Shown here piece by piece: positions 3,089 to 40,997 of a stretch of DNA of 64,000 nt. The stretch is from Azospirillum brasilense (GTDB lineage: Bacteria > Pseudomonadota > Alphaproteobacteria > Azospirillales > Azospirillaceae): NCBI RefSeq assembly GCF_007827795.1, contig NZ_VITI01000003.1, forward strand, positions 156,090-220,089, read 5' to 3'. The notes under the pieces are model-generated. The model had not been told where the DNA came from. It ran no database searches and saw nothing but the letters and a program-made list of their open reading frames with translations. Positions within the stretch are counted from its first letter, which is position 1; every line of letters starts with the position of its first letter. The translations under genes and the position numbers were made by a program.

Positions 3089-5083
3089 ATGAATCCCCTC
3101 CGCACGTTCAGCCTTGCGACAAAGCTGACCATTCTGTGCACGCTCGGCCTGATTGCCCTGTCCGGTGCCCTGACCTACGCGACGATCGTCAAGGTCACCG
3201 CCAGCATCGGCAAGGACGCGGCGGAACGGAGGGAGCAGGCCATCACCAACTTCCGGATGCTGCTCGACCAGAAAGGGTCCGAGTACCGGCTCAAGGACGG
3301 CGCGCTGTACATCGACGAATTCAAGCTGGACGGCGCGAACGACATCGTCGACACCGTCCGCAGCGTGACCGGCGGCGTGGCCACCATCTTCCGCGGCGAC
3401 ACCCGCGTGGCGACCAACATCCACAACGCGGACGGCAGCCGGGCCGTCGGGACGAAATTGGCCCGCGGCCCCGTCTACAGCGCCGTCATCGACGGTAAGG
3501 AGCCCTTCCGCGGCGAGGCCGACATCCTGGGCGACGCCTATTTCACCGCCTACGACCCGCTCATCGACCAGAATGGCGAGGTCATCGGCGTACTGTTCGT
3601 CGGCCTGAAGAAGAGCGTCGCGCTGCGCGTGCTGGACGAGGTGGTTCCCAACATCATCCAGGTGGCGGCGGTCATCACCGCCGGCATGGCCCTGGTGATG
3701 CTGCTGGTGGTCCGGCGCCAGTTCCGCACGCTGGACCAGATCCGCGGCACCATGTTCCAGCTGGCCGAGGAACGGTACGAGGTAACGGTGCCCGGCCTGG
3801 ACCGCCAGGACGAGATCGGCGCCATGGCCAAGACCGTCGAGATCTTCCGCCAAAAGGGCATCGACAACCAGCGCCTGCGCGAGGCGCAGGAACGCGAGCG
3901 CCGCGAGGCCGAGGCCGCCAAGATCGCCGCCCTGGAATCGATGGCCCGCACGGTGGAGCAGGAAACCCGCACCGCCGTGGACCGCGTCGCCGAACGCTCC
4001 GTCTCGATGGACAGCAACGCCCAGGCGATGGCCAACTCGGCCGAGACCGTCTCCGCCAACTCCCAGAGCGTGGCGGCCGCGGCGGAACAGGCGTTGGGCA
4101 ACGCCCAGGCCGTGGCGGCGGCAACCGACCAGCTCACCGCGTCCATCGCCGAGATCACCGGCCAGGTTACCTTCGCCAGCCAGATTTCCCGCCGCGCCGT
4201 GGAAAGCGGCCGCCGGACCGAAGACGTGGTGCTCTCCCTGTCCGAGGCCATCGGCCACATCGGGGAAGTCGCCACCTTCATCCAGGACATCGCCAGCCAG
4301 ACCAATCTTCTGGCGCTGAACGCCACCATCGAGGCCGCAAGGGCCGGCGAGGCCGGCAAGGGTTTCGCCGTGGTGGCCCAGGAGGTGAAGAACCTCGCCA
4401 CCCAGACTTCCAAGTCGGCGGAGGAGATTTCCCGCCAGATCACCGACCTGCAGAGCATGACCGCCGGGGCCGTCGACGCGGTGCAGGACATCGGTCGGAC
4501 CATCACCGAGATCGACGGGGTCGCCAGCAGCATCGCCAGCGCCATGGACGAGCAGGGTGCGGCGACCAGCGAGATTTCCCGCAACGTCGGCCAGACCGCC
4601 GCCGCCGCGCAGGAGGTGTCGTCCCGCATCGCCCATGTGTCGGAGGAAGCGGCGGTGACCGGCAGCCGCGCCGACGAGGTGCGCCGGGTCGCGTCCGATG
4701 TGGCGGGAAGCATCGACCAATTGCGCCAGATGCTGGTCCGCGCCGTGCGCACCGCGACGCCCGAGGTGGACCGCCGGCGCGCTCCGCGGTTCGAGGTCAA
4801 CCTGTCCTGCACCATCGCCGGGGCGGTGGGATCGCTGACGGGACAGCTCACCAACCTGTCGGAAGGCGGCGCCACCATCCACGGCCTGGACCGGATGCAG
4901 GTGGGCAGCCGCGGCGTGCTGACCATTCCCGGCTGCGCCATCTCCATTCCCTTCGCGGTGCTGGGGGGCAAGGAGCAGGATCTGCACGTCCGGTTCGAGC
5001 TTACCCCGGATCTCGCCGACCGCTTCGCCGCGGATTTCAAACGCCTCACCGCGGGACTCCACCCGCTTCCGGCGGTCGCCTGA
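3089..5083 (+). CDS. Methyl-accepting chemotaxis protein, Cache-HAMP-MCP-PilZ
   Basis: Membrane chemoreceptor of 664 residues. Start chosen at the ATG at 3089 because AAGGAG lies 10 bases upstream; an upstream in-frame ATG at 3029 has none. TM1 is at about 8-33, followed by a periplasmic single-Cache-type sensor to about 185, TM2 at 187-209, HAMP, then the MCP signalling domain with the [19 protein letters not shown] tip near residue 402. The C-terminus (about 558-657) is a PilZ domain with DRRRAPRF and NLSEGG motifs, so c-di-GMP binding is expected. The layout matches the Azospirillum Tlp1-type energy-taxis receptor, but the ligand cannot be read from sequence. Confidence 0.92.
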
Positions 5084-5111
5084 GCCGGAAGTCTTCAAGA
5101 CTGGCGGCACT

Positions 5112-5133
5112 GGAGGGGCAACCGTGCCCCTCC
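5112..5133. terminator. Hairpin between convergent genes
   Basis: GGAGGGGCA pairs perfectly with TGCCCCTCC around an ACCG loop, midway between the ends of the chemoreceptor and cytochrome genes. It lacks a T-tract. A bidirectional terminator role is inferred from position. Confidence 0.55.
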
Positions 5134-5164
5134 CGGCCGCGCCATGCGTGGTCTATCGGACGTT

Positions 5165-5536
5165 TCAGCTGTTCTTCTTCAGGAAGGCGATCAGGTCCTT
5201 GCGGGCCTGCTCGTTCTTCACACCGGCGAAGGCCATCTTGTTGCCGGGGACGGTGCCCTTCGGATCGGCCAGATACTTGTCGAGATTGGCCTCGTCCCAG
5301 GTGAGCCCGGCGCCCTTCATCGCGTCGGAATACTTGAAGCTCTCGATGGAGCCCGACGCACGGCCGGCGACGCCATGCAGGTTCGGGCCGACGCGGTTGG
5401 GACCGCCGGCCTCGATGGTGTGACAGGCCTTGCACTGGTTGAACACCTTCTCGCCCGCATCGGCGTCCTGCGCCAAGGCGATGCCGGGAAGGGCGGCGAA
5501 CAGGCCGAAGGCCAGAACGGCAACACTACGCTTCAT
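5165..5536 (-). CDS. Periplasmic class I cytochrome c (c2/c550 type)
   Basis: A 123-residue protein starting at the ATG at 5536, which gives a clean signal peptide (MKRS..., hydrophobic core, cleavage after ALA). The mature part has the haem-attachment motif CKACH and a later methionine ligand in PGNKMAFAG, with the NRVGPNLHG and LDKYLADP segments typical of mitochondrial/c2-type cytochromes. It would carry electrons between respiratory complexes in the periplasm. It stands alone, convergent with the chemoreceptor gene. Confidence 0.92.
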   Translation of the reverse strand: MKRSVAVLAFGLFAALPGIALAQDADAGEKVFNQCKACHTIEAGGPNRVGPNLHGVAGRASGSIESFKYSDAMKGAGLTWDEANLDKYLADPKGTVPGNKMAFAGVKNEQARKDLIAFLKKNS

Positions 5537-7544: not shown

Positions 7545-7976
7545 ATGACCAACCCGATCAACAGGTCACCACAGGCCCGGACGGATGAGACATTGATCGC
7601 TGATGCCGCTCCCGTCCGTGTCCTGGTCGTCGAGGATGAGACGATCGTCGCCATGTATCTGACCGATATGTTGGAGGAGTTGTCCTACGAGGTCTGCGGC
7701 GTCGCCGCCAACGCCGCTGACGCGCTGAAGATCGCGGAACGGGAGCGCCCCGCCCTGGCACTCGTGGACATCGGCCTTGCCGGGCCGCAGGACGGCATCG
7801 AGACGGCGCAGGCGTTGCGCGAGCGCTTCGCCGTGGGCAGCATCTTCATGTCCGGGGCCAGCGATCCCGTCCTTCTGGAACGCGCCCGCGCCGCCGGCCA
7901 TCACGGCTTCATCCAGAAGCCCTACGACGAGCGCCAGTTGAAGACCCTGTTGAACAACGCCGCCCCCCGGCATTAG
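7545..7976 (+). CDS. Stand-alone response regulator receiver protein
   Basis: A 143-residue protein consisting of one CheY-like receiver domain with a short N-terminal tail. Residues expected for phosphorylation are present: acidic pair Glu30/Asp31, phosphoacceptor Asp75 (ALVDIGLAG), a serine in FMSGAS and Lys125 in IQKPY. It has no output domain, so it should act as a phosphotransfer intermediate or by binding a partner. It lies upstream of two hybrid kinases on the same strand and is probably their partner. Confidence 0.9.
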   Translation: MTNPINRSPQARTDETLIADAAPVRVLVVEDETIVAMYLTDMLEELSYEVCGVAANAADALKIAERERPALALVDIGLAGPQDGIETAQALRERFAVGSIFMSGASDPVLLERARAAGHHGFIQKPYDERQLKTLLNNAAPRH

Positions 7977-8117
7977 CTTCCGCCGCCTCCCGCTTGCCGT
8001 CCCGTGGCTGCGCCGCTCCGGCGCGCGGCCATTCCGGCGTTCCGCCGGGCGCGCCGTCGATCGTGCGCAAGGGGACATCCGAGACACAGGCCTGGACTTC
8101 TTAGGGACCATCGCGTC

Positions 8118-11100
8118 ATGACGATGACGGACGCTCACGACCGGCTCTCCCCCCAGCTTCTCCTGCGCGCGCTGCGCCAGTTCCGCAAGGGCGACTTCTC
8201 CGTTCGCCTGCCGCTGGACCTGGACGGGCTTGACGGCGAGATCGCCGCCGCCTTCAACGACGTGGTGGAGATGAACGAAGCCCTGGTGGAGGACGTCGGC
8301 CGGGTCAGCGTCGCCATCGGCAAGGAGGGGCGAATCGGCCAGCGCGTCCGCCTGCCCACCGCCTCGGGCGGCTGGGGAGCCTGCGTGGACAGCGTCAACG
8401 CCATGGTCGCCGACCTGACCCAGCCGACCCAGGAGATGGCCCGCGTCATCGGCGCGGTCGCCAAGGGGGACCTGTCGCAGTCGATGCCGCTGGAGGTCGA
8501 CGGGCGCCCGCTCCAGGGCGAATTCCTGCATACCGCCCGCACGGTCAACCTGATGGTCGAGCAGCTCGTCACCGTGACGGCGGAGCTGACGCGGGTGGCG
8601 CGCGAAGTCGGCATCGAGGGCAAGCTGGGCGAGCAGGCCCAGGTGAAGGACGTCGCCGGCACCTGGAAGGACCTCACCGACAACGTCAATCTGATGGCCG
8701 CCAACCTGACGGCCCAGGTCCGCAACATCGCCGACGTCACCACGGCGGTGGCCAAGGGCGACCTGTCGCGCAAGATCACCGTGGACGTGAAGGGCGAAAT
8801 CCGCGAGCTGAAGGACACCATCAACACGATGGTCGACCAGCTCAACAGCTTCGCCAGCGAGGTCACCCGCGTCGCCCGCGAGGTCGGCAGCGAGGGCAAG
8901 CTCGGCGGACAGGCCCAGGTGAAGGGTGTGGCCGGCACCTGGAAGGATCTCACCGACAACGTCAACCTGCTGACCGGCAACCTGACCAATCAGGTCCGCA
9001 ACATCGCCGACGTGACGACCGCCGTCGCCAACGGCGACCTGTCGCGCAAGATCACCGTCGACGTGAAGGGCGAAATCCGCGAGTTGAAGGACACCATCAA
9101 CACGATGGTCGACCAGCTCAACAGCTTCGCCAGCGAGGTCACCCGCGTGGCGCGCGAGGTCGGCACCGAAGGCAAGCTGGGCGGGCAAGCGCAGGTGAAG
9201 GGGGTGGCTGGCACCTGGAAGGACCTCACTGACAACGTCAACGCGATGGCGACCAACCTGACCAGCCAGGTCCGCAACATCGCGGAAGTCACCACCGCGG
9301 TGGCGAAGGGCGATCTGTCGCGCAAGATCACCGTGGACGTGAGGGGCGAGATCCTGGAGTTGAAGGACACCATCAACACGATGGTCGACCAGCTCAACAG
9401 CTTCGCTTCGGAAGTCACCCGTGTGGCGCGCGAGGTCGGCAGCGAAGGCAAGCTCGGCGGACAGGCCCAGGTGAAGGGTGTCGCCGGCACCTGGAAGGAC
9501 CTGACCGACAACGTCAACCTGCTGACCGGCAATCTGACCAATCAGGTCCGCAACATCGCCGACGTCACCACGGCGGTGGCCAACGGCGACCTGTCGCGCA
9601 AGATCACCGTCGATGTGAAGGGCGAGATCCTGGAGCTGAAGGACACCATCAACACGATGGTCGACCAGCTCAACAGCTTCGCTTCGGAAGTCACCCGCGT
9701 GGCGCGCGAGGTCGGCACCGAGGGCAAGTTGGGCGGACAGGCCCAGGTGAAGGGTGTCGCCGGCACCTGGAAGGACCTCACCGACAACGTCAACATGATG
9801 GCCGCCAACCTGACCGGTCAGGTGCGCGGCATCGCCGAGGTCGTGACGGCGGTCGCCGAGGGCAACCTGAAGCGCAAGCTGACCGTCGCGGCGCGCGGCG
9901 AGATCGCGGCGCTGGCCGACACCATCAACGGCGTGATCGAGACGCTGGCCATCTTCGCCGATCAGGTCACCAACGTGGCGCGCGAGGTCGGCATAGAAGG
10001 CAAGCTGGGCGGTCAGGCGAAGGTGCCCGGCGCCACCGGCGTCTGGGGCGACCTGACCGACAACGTGAACCAGCTCGCCGCCAACCTGACCACCCAGGTG
10101 CGCGCCATCGCCGAGGTGGCGACCGCGGTGACCAAGGGCGACCTCACCCGCTCCATCGCCGTCGAGGCGTCGGGCGAGGTGGCGGCGCTCAAGGACAACA
10201 TCAACGAGATGATCCGCAACCTGCGCGACACGACGCAGAAGAACGCGGAACAGGATTGGCTGAAGACCAACATCGCCAAATTCACCCGCATGCTCCAGGG
10301 CGAACGCGATCTGGTCACCGTCACCAACATGATCCTGTCGGAGATCGCGCCGCTGGTGAACGCCCAGCACGGCGTCCTCTACGTCACCACCCGTGACGGC
10401 GACGAGCCGGTCCTCGATCTGGTCGCCAGCTACGCCCTGAAGGAGCGCGACGGGCTGGGCACCCGTTTCACGCTGAAGCAGGGGCTGGTCGGCCAGTGCG
10501 CCCACGAGAAGAAGCCGATCCTGCTGACCAACGTGCCGAAGGACTATGTCCGCATCAGCTCCGGCCTCGGCGAGGCAGCGCCGCTGAACATCATCGTCCT
10601 GCCCGTGCTGTTCGAGAACGAGGTGAACGCCGTGCTGGAGCTGGCCTCCTTCGGCCATTTCAGCGAGACGCACCGCTCCTTCCTGGAGCAGCTGACGGAG
10701 AGCATCGGGATCGTCCTGAACACCATCGCCACCAACATGCGGACCGAAGGGCTGCTCAAGCAGTCGCAGCGCCTGACCGCCGAGTTGCAGAGCCAGCAGG
10801 AGGAGCTGAAGACCACCAACGAGCGGCTGGAGCACCAGGCCGCCTCGCTCCGCCAGTCGGAGGAACTCCTGATGGCCCAGCAGGAAAAGCTGCGCCAGAC
10901 CAACGAGGCGCTGGAGGAGAAGGCGGAGCAGCTCTCCCTCACCTCCAAATACAAGTCGCAGTTCCTGGCGAACATGAGCCACGAGCTGCGCACCCCGCTG
11001 AACAGCCTGCTGATCCTGTCCAAGCTGCTGTCCGACAACGGCGACCACAACCTGACACCCCGGCAGGTGGAGTTCGCCCGCACCATCCACGCCGCCGGGT

Positions 11101-32375: not shown

Positions 32376-33548
32376 ATGGTGAGGACGATCGACGGGACGG
32401 AGGCGCTGACGGCCGACATGACCGCGTGGCGGCGCGACCTGCACGCCCACCCGGAAACGGCCTTCGAGGAGGAGCGGACCAGCGATTTCGTCGCGGAGAA
32501 GCTGGCCTCCTTCGGGCTGGAGGTCCATCGCGGCCTCGCCAAGACCGGTGTGGTCGGCCTGCTGCGCAACGGCGAGGGGCCGGCGGTCGCCTTCCGCGCC
32601 GACATGGACGCCCTGCACATCCATGAGCAGACCAACCTGCCCCACGCCTCGCGCAATCCGGGGCGCATGCACGCCTGCGGGCATGACGGGCATACAGCGA
32701 TGCTGCTGGGTGCGGCGCGCCACCTGTCAGCGCATCCGAACTTCCAGGGCACCATCGCCTTCGTCTTCCAGCCTGCGGAGGAGAATGAGGGCGGCGGGCG
32801 CGTGATGGTCGAGGAGGGGCTGTTCGAGAAATTCCCCGTCGAGCAGGTCTACGGCATGCACAACTGGCCGGGTCTGGAGGTCGGCAAGATCGCGCTGCGC
32901 CCCGGCCCGATCATGGCCGCATACGACATCTTCGAACTGACCCTGACCGGCAAGGGCACTCACGCCGCCATGCCCCATCTGGGCACCGACACGATTCTGG
33001 CCGGCACCCAGATCGTCAACGCCTGGCAGACCATCGCCAGCCGCAGCGTGCATCCCGTCGATTCCGCCGTGGTCAGCGTCACACAGTTCCACGCAGGCGA
33101 CACGTGGAATGTCCTTCCCGCCACCGCCGTCCTGCGTGGAACCACCCGGACCTTCCGCAAGGAGGTGCAGGACATGGTGGAGCGGCGCATGGGCGAACTG
33201 GCCAAGGCCATCGCCGCCGGCTACGGGATCGAGGCGGAGCTGCGCTACGAGCGCCGCTACCCGTCCACGGTGAACGAGGCCGGGGCGACCGAACTGGCCC
33301 GGCGCGCCGCCGCCGGAGTCGTCGGCGAATTGGGGCTGGACCTCGACCCGATGCCCAGCATGGGGGCTGAGGATTTCGCCTTCATGCTGCAGCAGCGGCC
33401 CGGCTGCTACGTTTGGGTCGGCGCCGGGCCGTCGGACGGCGGGCGCAACCTGCACAGCCCGCATTACGACTTCAACGACGCGGTTCTGCCCATCGGCCTC
33501 AGCTATTGGGTGCGGCTGGCCGAAACGGTGCTGCCGCGCGCGGCGTGA
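32376..33548 (+). CDS. M20-family amidohydrolase (hippurate/N-acyl-amino-acid type)
   Basis: A 390-residue cytoplasmic metallo-amidohydrolase starting at the ATG at 32376 with CAGGGA upstream. Metal-binding motifs are present: ACGHDGH near residue 100, Glu pair in PAEENEGG, His in GMHNWPG, and the late His in NLHSPHYDFND. The dimerisation domain starts around TGKGTHAAMPH. Relatives cleave N-acyl or N-aryl amino acids such as hippurate or IAA-conjugates. It is divergent from the tetR-aas unit and may share its operator. A link to the ATC-hydrolase operon downstream is possible but separated by a palindromic element. Confidence 0.92.
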   Translation: MVRTIDGTEALTADMTAWRRDLHAHPETAFEEERTSDFVAEKLASFGLEVHRGLAKTGVVGLLRNGEGPAVAFRADMDALHIHEQTNLPHASRNPGRMHACGHDGHTAMLLGAARHLSAHPNFQGTIAFVFQPAEENEGGGRVMVEEGLFEKFPVEQVYGMHNWPGLEVGKIALRPGPIMAAYDIFELTLTGKGTHAAMPHLGTDTILAGTQIVNAWQTIASRSVHPVDSAVVSVTQFHAGDTWNVLPATAVLRGTTRTFRKEVQDMVERRMGELAKAIAAGYGIEAELRYERRYPSTVNEAGATELARRAAAGVVGELGLDLDPMPSMGAEDFAFMLQQRPGCYVWVGAGPSDGGRNLHSPHYDFNDAVLPIGLSYWVRLAETVLPRAA

Positions 33549-33568: not shown

Positions 33569-33751
33569 CCCTCTCCCCTCTGGGGAGAGGGTTAGGGTGA
33601 GGGGGTTGCGCTTGTGCCGAACGTTCCGCCACGCGCATCCCCCTCACCGGCTCTCAGCGGATGCCAGAGGCATCCGCCTGCCGCCGTCAGCGCTGGCTTT
33701 CAGCCAGCGCGAGAGGCCCTGCGGGCCACCCTCTCCCCAGAGGGGAGAGGG
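33569..33751. repeat. Composite palindromic intergenic element with four stem-loops
   Basis: The element is bounded by CCCTCTCCCC-N3-GGGGAGAGGG hairpins at 33569-33591 and 33729-33751, which are reverse complements of each other. Inside are the inverted pair GGTGAGGGGG (33596-33605) and CCCCCTCACC (33639-33648), a 9-bp-stem hairpin at 33657-33677 and another at 33690-33710. No ORF of note fills it. This is the structure of a dispersed extragenic palindromic or BIME-like repeat; other copies would be outside this window. Confidence 0.85.
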
Positions 33752-33787
33752 TTACAAAGGCAACCGCGTTCATTCCGGCACCTTTGT

Positions 33788-33817
33788 ACAAACCATTCCT
33801 ATCTCCCTATGGTTTGT
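33788..33817. promoter_or_regulatory. 9-bp inverted repeat upstream of the ATC-hydrolase/ABC operon
   Basis: ACAAACCAT and ATGGTTTGT form a perfect dyad with a 12-base spacer, about 107 bases before the FAD oxidoreductase start. The size and spacing fit a dimeric regulator's operator. No regulator gene is adjacent on either side, so its binder is unknown. Confidence 0.55.
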
Positions 33818-33831
33818 GTATGAAACAGGAA

Positions 33832-33858
33832 AATTACCGCGCCCCGTCCATGGTAATT
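33832..33858. promoter_or_regulatory. 7-bp inverted repeat upstream of the ATC-hydrolase/ABC operon
   Basis: AATTACC and GGTAATT flank 13 bases, closer to the operon start than the dyad at 33788. Two separate dyads in one leader suggest layered control, but this one is short enough to be chance. Confidence 0.4.
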
Positions 33859-33923
33859 GCCCGAGTATGCAATTTGTCCCATGATCGGGCCGATTTCACC
33901 CGACAGACGTGGGACAAGGCACG

Positions 33924-35249
33924 GTGAAGGCGATAGAGAACAAGACCGGTGTTCCTGGAACCGGCGGCATCTGGCAGCGGCCCGACTCCCTGTGGGAGGC
34001 CACGGCCCCGCCGCCGCCGGCCCTTCCGGCGCTCAAACACGCGGTGGAAGCCGACCTGCTGGTGATCGGCGGCGGCTTCACCGGCCTGTCGGCGGCCCTG
34101 CACGCCGCCGAATCGGGCAAGCGCGCCGTCGTCCTGGAGGCGTCGGAGATCGGGCGCGGCGCGTCCGGGCGCAACAACGGGCAGGTCATCCCGACCCTGA
34201 CCCGACCCGACCCCGAAGACCTCGTCGCCAAGTTCGGGCCGGAGCGGGGCGAACGCTTCGTCGCGCTGATCCGCGACAGCGCCGAGACCCTGTTCGCCCT
34301 GATCCGCCGTCTCGGCATCGACTGCGCGGCCGAGCAGACCGGCTGGGTGCAGCCGGTCCATTCGCCGGGCCGCATCGCCATCGCCGAACGGCGGGCCAAG
34401 CAGTGGGGCAGCCGCGGCGCTCCGGTGGAGCTTCTCGACCGCGCCGGCATTTCGGATCTGCTGGGCACCGACGCCTATTACGGCGGCTGGATGAACCGCA
34501 GCGGCGGCCACGTCAACCCGCTGGCGCTGGCCCGCGGGCTGGCCGGCAAGGCGGTCGAGGCCGGCGCGTCGGTCTATATCAACTCACCCGTCCTGTCGGT
34601 GGAGCGGCGCGGCGACCGCTGGGTCGCCCGCACGCCGGACGGCTCGGTGACCGCCCATGCCCTGGTGCTGGGCACCAACGGCTATGCCGCCGCCGTCTTC
34701 CCGGAGATCCGGACGGAGGTCGTGCCCGTCCTGTCCTGGCAGATGGCCACCCAGCCGCTGGACGAGGCGCAGCGGCGCAGCATCCTGCCCGGCCGTCAGG
34801 CCATGTCGGACACCCACGGCGACCTGCGCTTCATGCGCTACACCGCCGACCACCGGCTGGTCAGCGGCGGCGCGCTGCTGGTCCCCATCGACGGGGCAGA
34901 CCGGCTGCGGCGCATCGTCGGCCTGCGGCTGGCCTCCATGTTCCCCACCCTGCGCGGGCTGCGGTTCGACCATGTGTGGAACGGGCGGATCGCCATGACC
35001 ACCGACTACACTCCGCGGGTCCACCAGCTCGGCCCCAACGCCTTCACCTGGGCGGGCTGCAACGGGCGCGGCGTCGCCCTGTCCGTCTCGCTGGGGCGGG
35101 AGCTGGCCTACGCCGCGCTGGGCCGCGATCCGGCGGAGCTGGCGCTGCCGCTGACCGAGCCGCGTCCCCTGCCCTTCAACGACCTGCTGCAACGCATCGG
35201 GCCGTTCAAACTCCTGCAATACCGCTGGAACGACATCCGGGAAATCTGA
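33924..35249 (+). CDS. FAD-dependent oxidoreductase, DAO/PuuB-like
   Basis: A flavoprotein of about 441 residues. The ADP-binding motif is VIGGGFTGLSAALHAAE, preceded by the SLWEATAPPPPALPAL segment seen in gamma-glutamylputrescine-oxidase-like members. The C-terminal FAD motif is FTWAGCNGRGVALS. Such enzymes oxidise an amine or imino acid C-N bond to the imine. The start could be GTG at 33924 (GGGACAAGG upstream) or GTG at 33909. It opens a seven-gene co-directional set, with only 2 bases to the next gene, so it probably acts on the compound imported by the following ABC system. Confidence 0.88.
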   Translation: MKAIENKTGVPGTGGIWQRPDSLWEATAPPPPALPALKHAVEADLLVIGGGFTGLSAALHAAESGKRAVVLEASEIGRGASGRNNGQVIPTLTRPDPEDLVAKFGPERGERFVALIRDSAETLFALIRRLGIDCAAEQTGWVQPVHSPGRIAIAERRAKQWGSRGAPVELLDRAGISDLLGTDAYYGGWMNRSGGHVNPLALARGLAGKAVEAGASVYINSPVLSVERRGDRWVARTPDGSVTAHALVLGTNGYAAAVFPEIRTEVVPVLSWQMATQPLDEAQRRSILPGRQAMSDTHGDLRFMRYTADHRLVSGGALLVPIDGADRLRRIVGLRLASMFPTLRGLRFDHVWNGRIAMTTDYTPRVHQLGPNAFTWAGCNGRGVALSVSLGRELAYAALGRDPAELALPLTEPRPLPFNDLLQRIGPFKLLQYRWNDIREI

Positions 35250-35251
35250 CG

Positions 35252-35764
35252 ATGACTGAAGACACGAAGCCGCCCGCCGCCCCGGACCACGCCACGCAAC
35301 TGCGCAACGCCTACGCGATGCGGGCCGCGTCCTACGCCCACATGTTCGACGTGCTGCGCGAGCGCTACGGCACCGACACGGCGCTGGACATCGGGCGCGA
35401 GGCGACCCGCCGCCTGGGCGAGGCGATGGGCGTGAAGTACGCGGCGCACGGCCCCGACGACTTGGCCGGCCTGTGCCACGCCTTCCTCGACGGCATCCCC
35501 AACCGCGATTCCATGTTCGCGCCGGAGATCAAGCGCTGCGACGGCGACGCGCTGGAAATCCATTTCCACCGCTGTCCCCTCAAGGAGGCGTGGCAGGCCC
35601 AGGGCAAGTCCGACGAGGATCTGGAACTGCTGTGCAACATGGCCGGCGCGATCGACGGCGGCCTGTTCGAGGCAGCCGGCTTCGTCTTCCGCGGCGAGAC
35701 CTGGAAGCCGGGCGACGAGGGCTGTTGCCGCCTGAAGGTCCTGCCCGGCCCCAAGGCCGCCTGA
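35252..35764 (+). CDS. ATC-hydrolase-family protein (L-2-amino-thiazoline-4-carboxylate hydrolase-like), copy 1
   Basis: A 170-residue cytoplasmic protein. The region ending EIHFHRCPLKEAWQAQG and DLELLCNMAGAIDGGLFEAAGFVF matches the conserved core of the ATC-hydrolase family, whose characterised member opens a thiazoline ring on the way to cysteine. It is encoded 2 bases after the oxidoreductase. A second paralogue closes the operon at 40435. The true substrate is unknown; a cyclic amidine or thiazoline is possible. Confidence 0.78.
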   Translation: MTEDTKPPAAPDHATQLRNAYAMRAASYAHMFDVLRERYGTDTALDIGREATRRLGEAMGVKYAAHGPDDLAGLCHAFLDGIPNRDSMFAPEIKRCDGDALEIHFHRCPLKEAWQAQGKSDEDLELLCNMAGAIDGGLFEAAGFVFRGETWKPGDEGCCRLKVLPGPKAA

Positions 35765-35847
35765 TCCGCCCTGCCGCCAAGCCCTACCCTACGACGCTGC
35801 CCAACACCGGCCTCGAAGCCGGCCTTCACAAGAAAGGTTCACACGCG

Positions 35848-36960
35848 ATGACCGCCCTGAAGACCGCCTCCCTCGCCGCCCTCATGACTGCCGCGCTGGC
35901 CGGCACCGCCCTGGCCGCCGACACCGTGAAGATCGGCTACCAGCTTCCGCTGACCGGCGAGACCGCCCAGTACGGCCAGGATTTCCGCAAGGCCGCCGAG
36001 ATCGCGCTGGCCGAGTTCAACGCCGCCGGCAAGCCCTTCAAGGCGGAGATCGTCTTCGAGGACAGCCGCTCCGACGCCAAGGAAGGCACCAACATCGCCC
36101 GCAAGTTCGTGGACGACAAGGAAATCGTCGGCGTGTTGGGCGACTTCACCTCGGGCGTGTCGATGGCCTCGGCGCAGGTCTACAAGGACGCCGGGATGCC
36201 GCAGCTCTCGCAGACGGCCTCGCACCCCGACTACACCAAGATCTCCAAGTACCAGTTCCGCAACATCGCCACCCAGGCGCAGGAAGGCCCCTACAACGCC
36301 AAGTGGATGCTGTCCAAGGGCTACAAGAACATCGCCGTCATCGCCGAGCAGACCGACTGGGGCCAGTCCGTCGTCTCCGGCTTCACCGACGGCGTGAAGG
36401 CCAACGGCGGCACGGTGGTCTTCTCCGAGTTCTTCAACCGCGGCCTGAAGGACTACCGCTCGCTGATCAGCAAGCTGGAGCGCGCGAAGCCGGACGCCAT
36501 CTACACCGGCTTCTTCTACGAGGACGGCGCGCAGTTCCTGCGTCAGGTGCAGCAGCTCGGCATCAAGACCCCGGTCTACTCGACCTCCGCCGCCTACAGC
36601 CCGAAGCTGATCGAGCTGGCCGGCGAGGCGGCGGAGGGCGTGCACCTGACCTCCAACTTCCTGCCGACCGATCCGGCCCCGCACATCCAGCATTTCGTGA
36701 CGGAGTGGAAGGCCGCCTCCAACGGCGCGGTTCCGGGCCAGTTCCCGGCCCAGGCCTATGACGCCGTGCGCATCATGCTGGCCGCGGTCGAGAAGGCCTA
36801 CCCGAACCCGACCCGCGAGAAGGTGCGCGACGCCCTGGCCCAGACCAAGGACTTCGCCGGCGTGACCGGCAAGACCAGCTTCAGCGCCGACCGCGAGGCC
36901 GAGAAGGAGCTGGTGAAGGTCGAGGTCAAGGGCGGCGCCTTCGTGCCGGTCGCCGACTGA
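35848..36960 (+). CDS. Branched-chain-amino-acid-type ABC transporter substrate-binding protein
   Basis: A 370-residue periplasmic protein with a signal peptide cleaved near ALAA and AGAAAGG-type ribosome-binding sequence 10 bases before the ATG at 35848. The mature part begins TVKIGYQLPLTGETAQYG, the signature of type I LivJ/Leu-Ile-Val-like binding proteins. It delivers a ligand to the permeases encoded next. Family members bind amino acids, amides, urea or aromatic acids, so the neighbouring enzymes are the better guide to the ligand. An 83-base gap precedes it. Confidence 0.93.
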   Translation: MTALKTASLAALMTAALAGTALAADTVKIGYQLPLTGETAQYGQDFRKAAEIALAEFNAAGKPFKAEIVFEDSRSDAKEGTNIARKFVDDKEIVGVLGDFTSGVSMASAQVYKDAGMPQLSQTASHPDYTKISKYQFRNIATQAQEGPYNAKWMLSKGYKNIAVIAEQTDWGQSVVSGFTDGVKANGGTVVFSEFFNRGLKDYRSLISKLERAKPDAIYTGFFYEDGAQFLRQVQQLGIKTPVYSTSAAYSPKLIELAGEAAEGVHLTSNFLPTDPAPHIQHFVTEWKAASNGAVPGQFPAQAYDAVRIMLAAVEKAYPNPTREKVRDALAQTKDFAGVTGKTSFSADREAEKELVKVEVKGGAFVPVAD

Positions 36961-37007
36961 TCGCCTGACCGTCCCATAGACCCAACGATCTCCAGCGAAC
37001 GGCCCGC

Positions 37008-37922
37008 ATGATCGACCCATATTACCTCCAGCAGCTCGCCATCGGGCTGTCGCTGGGGATGACCTACGCGCTGATGGCGATCGGCTTCACGCTGATCTTC
37101 GGCGTGCTGAACGTCGTCAACTTCGCTCATGGCGAGGTCTACACGCTGGGCGCCTTCGCCGGGCTGGTGCTGATTTCCGCGACGGCCCCGCCGATCTTCG
37201 CGGTGATCTTCATCGCCCTGGCGATCGGCGCCATGGCCGGATTCTCACTGGAACGGATCGCCTTCAAGCCCTTCCGCCGCTTCACCGACGAGGCGTCGCT
37301 GAAGTCGCGGGCGATGCGCGAATCCACCCTGCTCTCCTCGCTCGCCGTGTCCATCGTGGTGCGCGAGGCGCTGGAGATCGTGTTCGGGTCGCAGATGCGC
37401 TCCGTCCCGTTCGAGTATCTCATCAACACGCCGGTGCGCATCGGGCCGGTGATCCTGGTGACCGGCGACTTCATCATCTTCGGCGTGGCCGCGGCGATGC
37501 TGATCGGTCTCCAGTATCTGCTGACCCGCACCCGCATCGGCCTGTCGATCCGGGCGGTGTCGAACAACCCGCTGGGCGCCAAGTATGTCGGCATCGACAC
37601 CGACCGCACCATCATCATGACCTTCGTCGTCGGCTCGATGATGGGGGCGGCGGCGGGCATCCTGACGGGGCTCTATTACGGGGCGATCTTCCCCGCCATG
37701 GGCTTCGTGCCGGGCATCAAGGCCTTCGTCGCCATGGTGATGGGCGGGCTGTCCTCCATTCCGGGTGCTGTGATCTGCGCCCTGATCCTGGGCATCTCGG
37801 AGAGCATGGCGACGACCTTCGTGTCGTCGGGCTGGTCGGACATGGTCGCCTACGGCTTCCTGATCCTGACCTTGATCTTCTTCCCCAACGGACTGTTCGG
37901 AGCGCGCCGTGAACGTGTCTGA
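37008..37922 (+). CDS. LivH-like ABC transporter permease
   Basis: A 304-residue inner-membrane permease with many hydrophobic helices. It carries the LivH-type hallmarks GLSLGMTYALMAIGFTLIFG at the start and GLSSIPGAVICALILGISE near the end. It forms the membrane channel with the LivM-like partner. Its end overlaps the next gene by 14 bases. Confidence 0.93.
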   Translation: MIDPYYLQQLAIGLSLGMTYALMAIGFTLIFGVLNVVNFAHGEVYTLGAFAGLVLISATAPPIFAVIFIALAIGAMAGFSLERIAFKPFRRFTDEASLKSRAMRESTLLSSLAVSIVVREALEIVFGSQMRSVPFEYLINTPVRIGPVILVTGDFIIFGVAAAMLIGLQYLLTRTRIGLSIRAVSNNPLGAKYVGIDTDRTIIMTFVVGSMMGAAAGILTGLYYGAIFPAMGFVPGIKAFVAMVMGGLSSIPGAVICALILGISESMATTFVSSGWSDMVAYGFLILTLIFFPNGLFGARRERV

Positions 37923-38937
37923 CCTGTCGGCGCCGCGGCGCGGGCAAGGCGCGCTGATTCCGCTCCTGCTCGCCCTGCTGGTCTTCGTGGGGCTGCCGGC
38001 CGTGCTGGCCGGCTTCGACCGCGGCTATTTCTACCAGATCGCCAATCTGGCGCTGATCTTCATCCTGCTGTCCGCCTCCATGCATCTGGTCACCGGGGTG
38101 GCCGGGCTGCTGCATCTCGGGCACGCGGCCTTCTACGGGGTCGGCGCCTACACCGCCGCCCTGCTCTCGACCAAGTTCGGGCTGGGCTTCACGGTGACGC
38201 TGCCGCTGTCCGGTCTGGTGGCGGCGCTGATCGCCTTCCTGGTGGCGCTGCCGACCATGCGGCTGGTCAGCATCTATTTCGCCGTGGCGACGCTGGCCAT
38301 CGGGCAGATGCTCTATCTGGTCATGCTGAACTGGGTGGAGTTCACCAAGGGCCCCAACGGCATCATCGTCACCAAGGGCCTGGAGCTGTTCGGCTTCAGC
38401 CTGTCGGGCCGGCTGGCCACCTACTACACGGTGGCGACGGTGGTGGCGCTGTGCGTGCTGGCGATCGGGCGGCTCAGCCACTCCTATTATGGCAACGCGC
38501 TGCGCTCGATCCGCGAGGACGACCAGTGCGCCGACGCCATGGGCGTCAGCACGGCGCGTCTGAAGCTGGAAGCCTTCACCCTGTCGGCCTTCTTCGCCGG
38601 GGTGGCGGGCAGCCTGTGGGCGCACATGACCGGCTACATTTCGCCGGGCGACTTCAAGTTCTCCGAATCCATCCTGATCCTGGCGATGGTGGTGGTGGGC
38701 GGCCTGGGCAGCCTGCCCGGCGCGGTGATCGGCGCGCTTCTGCTGATCCTGCTGCCGGAGGGGCTGCGCGCCTTCGGCGACTTCCGCAACATCATGGTCG
38801 GTCTGGTGATGTTCCTGTCGATCCTACTGCTGCCGAAGGGCCTGCTGGGCGAGGTTTCCGCGCTCCAGCTCGCGCGGCGCCAGCTGGGCGCGGCGTGGCG
38901 CAACACCGTGAAGGGCGAAGGGATCGGCTGGCGATGA
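37909..38937 (+). CDS. LivM-like ABC transporter permease
   Basis: A 342-residue inner-membrane permease from a GTG inside the end of the LivH-like gene. It has the LivM hallmarks HLGHAAFYGVGAYTAALL and VVGGLGSLPGAVIGALLLILLPE. A loop with RAIREDD-like sequence (LRSIREDDQCADAMGVS) is the expected coupling region to the ATPases. The next gene starts within its stop codon (ATGA overlap). Confidence 0.93.
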   Translation: MNVSDLSAPRRGQGALIPLLLALLVFVGLPAVLAGFDRGYFYQIANLALIFILLSASMHLVTGVAGLLHLGHAAFYGVGAYTAALLSTKFGLGFTVTLPLSGLVAALIAFLVALPTMRLVSIYFAVATLAIGQMLYLVMLNWVEFTKGPNGIIVTKGLELFGFSLSGRLATYYTVATVVALCVLAIGRLSHSYYGNALRSIREDDQCADAMGVSTARLKLEAFTLSAFFAGVAGSLWAHMTGYISPGDFKFSESILILAMVVVGGLGSLPGAVIGALLLILLPEGLRAFGDFRNIMVGLVMFLSILLLPKGLLGEVSALQLARRQLGAAWRNTVKGEGIGWR

Positions 38938-39701
38938 CCCATCTTCTCGACATCCGCAACGTCAGCCGCCGCTTCGGCGGCGTGCTGGCGGTGAACGACG
39001 TGACCGGCCATGTGGACGAGGGCGAGCTGGTCGGGCTGATCGGCCCGAACGGCGCCGGCAAGACCACCCTGTTCAACCTGATCTCCGGCTTCACGCCGCT
39101 GTCGTCGGGCACCGTCGCCTTCGACGGGCGGACCATCAGCGGGCTGAAGACCAACCAGGTCGCCCGGCTGGGCATCAGCCGCACCTTCCAGAACCTGCGC
39201 GTCTTCCCGAACATGTCGGTGTTCGACAACGTGTCGGTGGGCGCGGTGGGCGCGCTGCCGCAGGGGGCGCTGGGCGCCCTGTTCGGCTCCCTCGCCGGGG
39301 GCGGCGCCCGTTCCGCCGAGATCAGCCGCCGCACCTGGGAGGCGCTGGAGGCCGTCGGCCTGACCCATGTGGCGGGCGAACTGGCCGCCAACCTGCCCTA
39401 CGGCCAGCGCAAGTATCTGGAGATCGCCCGCGCCCTGGCGATGCAGCCGCGCTTCCTGATCCTTGACGAGCCGGCCGCCGGCCTCAACGACACCGAGACC
39501 CGCGCGCTGGCCGACTTCATCAAGCGGCTGCACGGCACCGGCCTGACCATCATGCTGGTGGAGCACGACATGACCCTGGTCATGAGTATCTGCCAGCGCA
39601 TCCTGGTGCTCGCCTCCGGCCGCAAGATCGCCGACGGCCCGCCCGACGCCATCCGCCGCGATCAGGCGGTCCTGGAAGCCTATCTGGGGGTGGACGCATG
39701 A
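38934..39701 (+). CDS. LivG-like ABC transporter ATP-binding protein
   Basis: A 255-residue ATPase. Walker A is GPNGAGKTT, the signature is LPYGQRK (the LivG variant of LSGGQ), Walker B is FLILDEPAAGLN, and the switch His lies in LVEHDM. It powers the LivH/LivM-like channel together with the LivF-like subunit. Four-base overlaps with both neighbours indicate coupled translation. Confidence 0.94.
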   Translation: MTHLLDIRNVSRRFGGVLAVNDVTGHVDEGELVGLIGPNGAGKTTLFNLISGFTPLSSGTVAFDGRTISGLKTNQVARLGISRTFQNLRVFPNMSVFDNVSVGAVGALPQGALGALFGSLAGGGARSAEISRRTWEALEAVGLTHVAGELAANLPYGQRKYLEIARALAMQPRFLILDEPAAGLNDTETRALADFIKRLHGTGLTIMLVEHDMTLVMSICQRILVLASGRKIADGPPDAIRRDQAVLEAYLGVDA

Positions 39702-40423
39702 CCCAGCCGCAATCCAATGGTCCCATTCTCTCGATCGAAAAGCTCCATGTGTCGATGGGGCCGCAGGAGATCCTGCACGGCATCGACCTGACCGTGGCGC
39801 AGGGCGCCATCGTCGCCGTGCTGGGCTCGAACGGCGTCGGCAAGACGACGCTGATGCGGGCGGTGTCGGGCGTCTACCGGGCGAGCCGGGGCGGCATCGC
39901 CTTCCGCGGCGAGCCCATCGCCAACCTGCCCGCCCACCGCATCGTCAAGCTCGGCCTGTCGCAGGCGCCGGAGGGCCGCCAGATCTTCTCCAACATGAGC
40001 GTGCGGGAGAATCTGGTGCTCGGCGGCGGGGACATCGGGCTGGGAGAACTCGACCGGATGCTCGACATGTTCCCGGTCCTGCGGGAGCGCCTGCGCCAGA
40101 ACGCCGGGTCGCTGTCGGGCGGCGAGCAGCAGATGCTGTGCATCGCCCGCGCCCTGATGCGCCGCCCCGCCCTGCTTCTGCTCGACGAACCGTCGCTGGG
40201 TCTGGCCCCGATGGTGGTCGCGCAGATCTTCGATCTGGTGCAGCGCATCCGGGCGGAAGGCGTGTCGATCCTGCTCGTGGAGCAGAACGCCCGCGCCGCC
40301 CTGCGGGTCGCCGACCACGCGGCGGTGATGGAAGACGGGCGCATCGTGCTGGCCGGTCCGGCTGCCCAACTGCGCGACGATCCCCGCATCGCCGAAGCCT
40401 ATCTCGGCGGTCACGCGCATTGA
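39698..40423 (+). CDS. LivF-like ABC transporter ATP-binding protein
   Basis: A 241-residue ATPase with Walker A GSNGVGKTT, the signature LSGGEQQM, Walker B LLLLDEPSLGLAP and switch His replaced by Gln (LLVEQNA), as is normal for LivF. Together with the LivG-like protein it forms the ATPase dimer. The next gene follows 11 bases later. Confidence 0.94.
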   Translation: MTQPQSNGPILSIEKLHVSMGPQEILHGIDLTVAQGAIVAVLGSNGVGKTTLMRAVSGVYRASRGGIAFRGEPIANLPAHRIVKLGLSQAPEGRQIFSNMSVRENLVLGGGDIGLGELDRMLDMFPVLRERLRQNAGSLSGGEQQMLCIARALMRRPALLLLDEPSLGLAPMVVAQIFDLVQRIRAEGVSILLVEQNARAALRVADHAAVMEDGRIVLAGPAAQLRDDPRIAEAYLGGHAH

Positions 40424-40434
40424 CGGAGACAGTG

Positions 40435-40938
40435 ATGACCGAACCGACCGACACGCCCCCGGCCAAGCCCGTGATGGGCATGTTGGAACGCCGCGGGATC
40501 GAGGCGGCGATCCTGAAGCCGGTCTACGAGGAAATGGCCGCCCGACTGGGCGAGGCCGTGGCGCAGGAGATTCTGGGCGCCGCCATCACCCGCGCCGCCG
40601 TCGAGTCCGCCGCCGCCTTCGCCGCGACCGAGCCGAACGGCACCAGCCTGAAGAGCTTCGCCGAGCTGCAGCCGCTGTGGACCAAGGACGACGCCCTGCG
40701 GCTGGACGTTCTGCACCAGGACGAGACGCGGTTCGACTACAACGTCACCCGCTGCCGCTACGCCGAGATGTACCGGGAGATGGGGTTGGGTCCCATCGGG
40801 CACCTGTTGTCCTGCAACCGCGACGCCGCCTTCTGCACGGGCTACGACCCGTCGATCAAGATGCAGCGGACGCAGACGATCATGCAGGGCGCCAGCCATT
40901 GCGACTTCCGCTACAGCGTGGACAAACCGCAAGGCTGA
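40435..40938 (+). CDS. ATC-hydrolase-family protein, copy 2
   Basis: A 167-residue protein with the strongest family signature of the pair: FDYNVTRCRYAEMYREMG, then GHLLSCNRDAAFC and a TQTIMQGASHCDFRY ending. The conserved cysteines and histidine in these motifs are the presumed catalytic residues of the ATC-hydrolase family. It differs from copy 1 in both length and sequence, so the two probably act on different substrates or form a hetero-complex. It is the last gene of the operon. Confidence 0.85.
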   Translation: MTEPTDTPPAKPVMGMLERRGIEAAILKPVYEEMAARLGEAVAQEILGAAITRAAVESAAAFAATEPNGTSLKSFAELQPLWTKDDALRLDVLHQDETRFDYNVTRCRYAEMYREMGLGPIGHLLSCNRDAAFCTGYDPSIKMQRTQTIMQGASHCDFRYSVDKPQG

Positions 40939-40958: not shown

Positions 40959-40997
40959 CGACGGCCCGGCGTTCCGCACGCCGGGCCGTCGCTTTTT
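40959..40997 (+). terminator. Strong intrinsic terminator of the ATC-hydrolase/ABC operon
   Basis: A perfect 14-bp stem (CGACGGCCCGGCGT with ACGCCGGGCCGTCG), a 5-base loop and a run of five T at 40993-40997, 20 bases after the last stop codon. This is the best terminator in the window. Confidence 0.93.

Follow-up and report, generated by a model that had tools for sequence, protein, structure and literature searches.

The window analysed here, a 64,000-nucleotide stretch of contig NZ_VITI01000003.1 of Azospirillum brasilense, contains an operon in which a predicted amino-acid importer is encoded together with an oxidase dependent on flavin adenine dinucleotide (FAD) and with two members of PF14196, the hydrolase family of 2-aminothiazoline-4-carboxylate (ATC), hereafter ATC1 and ATC2. 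Eight genes, and not the seven counted by an earlier note on this DNA, follow one another on the + strand: the FAD oxidase, ATC1, a substrate-binding protein, LivH, LivM, LivG, LivF and ATC2 (Table 1). As that note had stated, the set is co-directional. It is closely packed, with 2 nucleotides between the FAD oxidase and ATC1, 11 between LivF and ATC2, and overlaps at LivH/LivM, LivM/LivG and LivG/LivF, while the two paralogues, which are 23% identical, flank the genes of the binding protein and of the Liv components. The operon is genuine and is closed by a single strong terminator, again as previously noted; the number of terminator-like sites is in itself uninformative because four occur where shuffled sequences have 4.2 on average, the other three having stems of 5–7 pairs.

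Table 1. Features of the operon and of the region upstream, in window coordinates.
Feature	Position	Strand	Evidence
M20 aminoacylase-type amidohydrolase, probable part of the module	32376..33548	+	TIGR01891, 371.4 bits (cut-off 153.75)
Dispersed palindromic repeat between M20 and FAD oxidase genes	33569..33751		24-nucleotide perfect arms
Small dyad AATTACC/GGTAATT touching the -35-like element	33832..33858		possible operator
Promoter-like TTGCCC-N17-CATGAT	33857..33885	+	TTGC and CAT invariant in 9/9 aligned upstream regions
FAD-dependent DAO-family oxidase, AmaA-like	33924..35249	+	PF01266, 199.8 bits (cut-off 27.9)
ATC1, divergent PF14196 subfamily	35252..35764	+	PF14196, 47.7 bits (cut-off 28.1); separate deep clade
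LIV/HAAT-type substrate-binding protein	35848..36960	+	Peripla_BP_6, 218 bits
LivH-type permease	37008..37922	+	PF02653, 139.9 bits
LivM-type permease	37909..38937	+	PF02653, 147.1 bits
LivG-type ATPase	38934..39701	+	PF00005, BCA_ABC_TP_C
LivF-type ATPase	39698..40423	+	PF00005; best NCBIfam match LivF, 223 bits
ATC2, canonical-type PF14196 protein	40435..40938	+	PF14196, 133.6 bits (cut-off 28.1)
Rho-independent terminator	40959..40991	+	14-pair stem, 12 G-C, then TTTTT

Homologues of ATC1, of the window or of a paralogous kind (see below), were found in 28 of 61 genomes searched (27 of 37 within Azospirillum), the window kind (at least 74% identity) occurring in 23 genomes. A scan of one genome per species yielded 69 ATC1 loci, near-identical Azospirillum loci being kept and one Roseomonas-titled locus (L042) being grouped with Azospirillum, and neighbours were counted up to 9 kb from ATC1; because several contigs end inside the module, these counts are lower bounds. 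The FAD oxidase gene lies near ATC1 in 55 of the 69 loci (within 250 nucleotides in 41 of these 55), the binding protein in 52, all four Liv genes in 49, ATC2 in 38 and the M20 gene in 30, while the FAD oxidase, ATC2, M20 and four Liv genes stand together in 29. For the 41 loci outside Azospirillum, the corresponding numbers are 27 (FAD oxidase), 24 (binding protein), 21 (four Liv genes), 15 (ATC2) and 7 (M20). Less frequent neighbours are AsnC regulators (12/69), Glyoxalase_3 (9/69), Cds1 (7/69), Rid (7/69) and Asp/Glu racemase (4/69). Among the hosts are Hyphomicrobiales, Pacificibacter, Burkholderiales and several metagenome-assembled genomes, and some of them come from groups in which methylotrophy is known (Xanthobacter, Methylocystaceae, Methylobacteriaceae). 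Apart from L089, a bacterium of Burkholderiales kind, every locus seen with the full module is from Pseudomonadota, since titles from other phyla (Planctomycetota, Chloroflexota, Deinococcota, Desulfobacterota) fall among the loci devoid of the FAD oxidase gene. The earlier note had proposed a dedicated uptake and ring-opening module, to be abandoned if the grouping were not conserved; as the FAD/ATC/Liv grouping recurs in several orders of Pseudomonadota, it is not due to chance, and the proposal is supported.

Two further genes were observed around these loci. Glyoxalase_3 (VOC) genes lie near the FAD oxidase and ATC1 genes in unrelated lineages, i.e., Rhizobiales (L066, L068 and L075, which have the FAD oxidase and ATC1 without a Liv set), Burkholderiales (L076–L078) and Azospirillum (L080–L082). 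Another Rid-family gene (L061:6987-7328; PF01042, tested in L061), with relatives in L064 and L065, is found on the opposite strand upstream of the FAD oxidase gene, among other unrelated-looking genes.

Both ATC1 and ATC2 score above the PF14196 cut-off, and a profile comparison relates them to each other (probability 96.6). A survey of the phylum gave 31 positive genomes out of 397, from which 20 PF14196 places were taken for a comparison of neighbourhoods. A carbamoylase/hydantoinase-type amidase adjoins PF14196 in 4 of these 20 places, whereas no carbamoylase was detected in 71 ATC1 loci, i.e., the 69 above and two from A. brasilense Sp7 (one probe, E 1e-10, loci up to ~24 kb; hydantoins as such were not searched for). 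Conversely, no FAD oxidase gene of at least 40% identity was found in the 20 survey places, weaker matches being present in L150 and L152. In a tree of 70 rows, unsure in its details because five fragments are short and some branches long, a long branch with full support separates the ATC1 rows, together with L157, from all others. The ATC2 rows are intermixed with the survey rows, the carbamoylase-linked clade (100/100) joining beside the Azospirillum ATC2 (94/89). Because of these positions, the module pairs a canonical-type predicted ring opener (ATC2) with what is, judging from sequence, a deep and separate subfamily of PF14196 tied to the oxidase (ATC1).

The two subfamilies also have their own sets of conserved residues: R19, R20, E23, R106, C107, E111, C127, D130, R145 and C156 are among the invariants of ATC2 (18 rows), whereas in ATC1 (33 rows) C108, D135 and C159 are invariant, with R24, K111, E112, C128 and C158 almost invariant. 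Both subfamilies have three Cys positions in common. No credible solved relative of either protein was found by sequence. AlphaFold models are confident (predicted local distance difference test of 92.1 for ATC2, mean of 96.0 for ATC1), and that of ATC2 matches MopR (Foldseek E 1.2e-5, probability 1.00, TM 0.52). A second fold comparison gave Z of 9–10 for ATC2 (~145 residues, root-mean-square deviation ~4.3) and of 8–11 for ATC1, values that can stem from a common arrangement and bear on fold only, not function. According to these models, ATC1 and ATC2 share the V4R/TRAPP/H-NOX fold over most of the domain. They resemble the V4R phenol sensors MopR and PoxR in this predicted fold, but are free-standing and have other conserved residues, as well as a Cys spacing unlike that of MopR. 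A V4R likeness of PF14196 based on sequence and a three-Cys cluster were noted earlier (PMC5847659; this and the other PubMed Central (PMC) articles are cited from excerpts).

Four of the other PF14196 loci deserve mention in their own right. L140 (6796 to ~13200) has a Liv set of its own besides PF14196 and a carbamoylase-type amidase, and from its gene content is likely a locus for the uptake and degradation of ATC. In L144 (7288-10296), PF14196 lies among genes for an Asp/Glu racemase, an alpha/beta hydrolase and LamB/YcsF, the latter being linked to 5-oxoprolinase. L154 (7585-9737) is a PF14196 place close to genes for a Rid protein (48%) and a beta-eliminating lyase, with an M20 gene (50%) at ~13698. 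Finally, L110, an Enterobacter plasmid, carries at 4995-5519 a distant PF14196-type gene, of a kind found on enterobacterial plasmids near insertion sequences.

The closest NCBIfam model to the FAD oxidase is the L-pipecolate oxidase AmaA (NF050086); both belong to the DAO family, but the score of 271 bits is well under the cut-off of 600. Its profile had no match in the PDB at E 1e-30, and the single sequence matched dimethylglycine dehydrogenases (4e-12 to 1e-11). The M20 protein is an amidohydrolase/aminoacylase (TIGR01891) and not of the carbamoylase type TIGR01879 (29.8 bits for a cut-off of 204); DoeB2 of the ectoine pathway is matched at 337.6 bits, under the cut-off of 550. As for the importer, it has the composition of the LIV (HAAT) type, i.e., a binding protein, two permeases and two ATPases, while scoring below the cut-offs of the branched-chain LivHMGF models (LivH 178/379, LivM 213/366, LivG 249/362, LivF 223/441). 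The nearest solved relative of the binding protein is 3hut (E 3e-91); another relative is 3ip5 (E 1.8e-35), which we take to be Atu2422. F100 aligns with a position at which 3ip5 has Phe and 3ipc has Ala, the Phe there helping to shape the ligand site. Of 21 aligned relatives, 20 carry Phe at this position, and the carbamoylase-linked L140 carries Trp. The protein is like Atu2422-type LIV/HAAT binding proteins in its relation to 3ip5 and its shared Phe, but unlike them in having 3hut as nearest solved relative. Atu2422 takes γ-aminobutyric acid (GABA), proline, alanine and valine (PMC5924552).

The genome itself holds five PF14196 matches: two in the window, two on another contig (C7) and one on C9 behind another Liv set. 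The C7 pair belongs to a paralogous operon, in which ATC1' is 46% identical to its counterpart in the window, the binding protein 56%, LivH/LivM/LivG/LivF 59–69%, ATC2' 51%, the FAD oxidase 45% and M20 63%, the M20 gene being here inside the operon. Upstream lie a Rid gene and a gene for a pyridoxal phosphate (PLP) enzyme, with a divergent AsnC regulator, an arrangement also found on plasmid p3 of Sp7. This PLP enzyme is nearest to the L-cysteine desulfhydrase Cds1 (the next family reaching 131 bits in Sp7) and can be regarded as a close relative, both copies scoring below the NF052478 cut-off of 600 (535 bits in Sp7, 532.5 in our genome); it is the single strong Cds1-like gene of the genome, located beside ATC1', the next match having 91.5 bits. 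Rid removes the 2-aminoacrylate made by desulfhydrase-type PLP enzymes. No NCBIfam model over its cut-off identified the AsnC regulator as a known cysteine sensor, 3i4p being its closest PDB entry. Sp7 carries an orthologue of the window operon on plasmid p2, with the genes in the same layout; they are annotated as an M20 aminoacylase, an FAD-binding oxidoreductase, two ATC hydrolases, a binding protein and branched-chain ABC importer genes. Two ideas of the earlier note gain from these data: the link with M20, whose gene is part of the paralogous operon and neighbours ATC1 in 30 of 69 loci, and cysteine as end product, in line with the desulfhydrase-like and Rid genes.

The single gene on C9 (L007, C9:112000-128000, at ~7619-8299) is a third Liv-linked PF14196 gene, with a Liv set ordered LivG-LivF-binding protein-LivH-LivM and only 23–43% identical to that of the window.

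On this basis, the module probably imports and degrades a cyclic amino acid. Our best explanation, with a probability of about 0.45, is that its substrate is a cyclic thiazolidine-type derivative of cysteine and its product cysteine, every substrate and reaction being what we infer from the genes; the set would then serve to regain cysteine from its aldehyde adducts. It is supported by the conserved grouping, the second full copy, the Cds1-like neighbour, the aminoacylase type of M20, the lack of carbamoylase matches in the ATC1 loci, the grouping of ATC2 and the binding protein's relation to 3ip5, with its Phe. Within that class, L-thiazolidine-4-carboxylate (thioproline, the formaldehyde adduct of cysteine), perhaps with 2-substituted relatives, is the likeliest candidate, although its probability of being the main substrate is low. 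Briefly, thiazolidine-4-carboxylate would be taken up by the Liv-type importer and dehydrogenated at the C2-N3 bond by the FAD oxidase, the resulting thiazoline-4-carboxylate would be hydrolysed by the PF14196 proteins to N-formyl- or N-acyl-cysteine, and the M20 aminoacylase would release cysteine. ATC2 would be the canonical ring opener, while ATC1 might act in the same step, in another step or in a complex. Next to the paralogous operon, the Cds1-like desulfhydrase and Rid would further turn cysteine into pyruvate, ammonia and sulfide.

Each of these steps has some precedent elsewhere. Sarcosine oxidase belongs to the DAO family. L-thioproline is a minor substrate of one such enzyme, which oxidises it with C-delta at 3.7 Å from FAD N5 (PMC12582975). 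Oxidation at this position would give a thiazoline, and this could be opened to N-formylcysteine by a PF14196 enzyme. The conversion of thioproline into N-formylcysteine is ascribed to bacteria and mitochondria (PMC9814826). The same type of ring is oxidised by ProC (PMC12899673), by sarcosine oxidase and, from the title of a reference, by proline dehydrogenase, but thioproline is there a side activity, ProC and sarcosine oxidase having other main substrates (PMC12899673, PMC12582975), whereas in the module the oxidase is linked to a ring opener, an amidase and an importer.

Several points weigh against a thiazolidine. The substrate and the reactions are predictions, and the oxidase scores low against the AmaA cut-off. 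Moreover, the M20 gene is present in only 7 of the 41 loci outside Azospirillum (some contigs ending early), ATC2 was not seen in 17 of the 55 loci with an FAD oxidase gene (some truncated, and including Burkholderiales and the A. canadense type), and 14 of the 69 loci have no FAD oxidase, even when searched with its profile at E 1e-10. Cds1 and Rid, of the kind probed, accompany the module only in the Azospirillum paralogue (7/69), so that the argument for cysteine rests on one lineage, and the scheme leaves the Asp/Glu racemase and Glyoxalase_3 genes unexplained. On the biochemical side, sarcosine oxidase is slow on thioproline and inhibited by it (PMC12582975), N-formylcysteine arose from cysteine and formaldehyde in plain buffer (PMC9814826), and therefore an enzyme is not strictly needed, and a preprint that names thioproline as a driver of formaldehyde toxicity in E. 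coli does not do so for M. extorquens (PMC13131673).

Rather unlikely, though the least so of the alternatives, is a cyclic secondary amino acid without sulfur (pipecolate-, proline- or ectoine-like), which the oxidase would convert into a cyclic imine or amidine, to be opened by PF14196 and deacylated by M20. The proximity of the oxidase to AmaA, the DoeB2 score of M20 and the relation of the binding protein to 3ip5, i.e., presumably the proline/GABA binder Atu2422, all point this way, and Rid and Asp/Glu racemase act on many amino acids; yet the AmaA and DoeB2 scores fall below their cut-offs, the Cds1-like desulfhydrase beside the paralogue would lack a role, and PF14196 is named after a thiazoline enzyme. 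Ectoine itself was considered and rejected, owing to the DoeB2 score and to the desulfhydrase that it leaves unexplained. It is improbable that ATC1 and ATC2 are not enzymes but V4R-like proteins that bind or sense small molecules, in an operon for ordinary uptake and oxidation of amino acids (proline, D-amino acids or branched-chain ones). Their fold is indeed closest to the phenol-sensor domains of MopR/PoxR, to TRAPP and to H-NOX, and the importer is of LIV type, but ATC2 falls within a group adjoining carbamoylases, many charged residues are invariant, PF14196 is the sole domain matched, with no DNA-binding or signalling domain, and the M20 and desulfhydrase-like partners also count against it.

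The canonical route, in which ATC would be imported and opened to N- or S-carbamoyl-cysteine while the FAD oxidase and M20 serve elsewhere, appears equally improbable. In the amidine route, ATC yields N-carbamoyl-cysteine, which in Pseudomonas is processed by an N-carbamoyl-cysteine amidohydrolase, and the known amidase is of the hydantoinase/carbamoylase family (TIGR01879). Compared by description rather than by enzyme sequence, the module resembles the Pseudomonas route in its PF14196 opener beside an M20-fold amidase, its predicted cysteine product and the PF14196 branch of ATC2, but differs in having an M20 of TIGR01891 instead of TIGR01879, an added FAD oxidase, the ATC1 subfamily and a dedicated importer. 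Both N- and S-carbamoyl intermediates are described for the ATC route (PMC10821248). In its favour, ATC2 groups with carbamoylase-linked PF14196 proteins, and one such locus (L140) has a Liv set. On the other hand, an amidine would not require the FAD oxidase, which would be superfluous, and several lineages hold the FAD oxidase and ATC1 without ATC2. The lack of a carbamoylase match in the 71 ATC1 loci and the different M20 subfamily thus lower the case for an amidine or ATC as main substrate, and the cyclic amidine suggested by the earlier note is not supported; its thiazoline idea is partly supported, with a thiazolidine, and not an amidine, as the likelier substrate.

Upstream of the operon, the same note had described a leader with two dyads. 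The large one is a dispersed repeat: the 196 bases around it have 126 matching stretches in the genome (overlapping ones included), and it is mostly missing in Sp7, i.e., variable between close strains, which rules it out as an operon-specific leader. Smaller dyads do exist in the operon-proximal leader (33757-33923), of which AATTACC/GGTAATT reads AATTTCC/GGGAATT-like in the lipoferum group. The promoter-like element is a candidate only, derived from the alignment of nine Azospirillum upstream regions (among which the window and L038 are near-identical), as a consensus promoter scan reported none.

In open-licence PMC literature, neither this operon nor a dedicated thioproline operon was found by title or start of abstract among the matches listed, so that, within those matches, this is a conserved catabolic module without a description. 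It might even, though this is doubtful, be the first dedicated system for thioproline utilisation, in which an importer, a thiazolidine oxidase, a ring opener of a new subfamily and an N-formylcysteine deformylase would be encoded together. In Escherichia coli, thioproline has been described as driving the toxicity of formaldehyde (PMC13131673, preprint). If the proposal holds, a product of formaldehyde stress would be turned back into cysteine and formate, and enzymes would be named for the turnover of N-formylcysteine, left for mammals to a “hypothetical enzyme” (PMC9814826, excerpt). In any case, two PF14196 subfamilies that went under one annotation name are now set apart, and with a conserved group of enzymes that comes with an importer, the turnover of thioproline and N-formylcysteine becomes testable.

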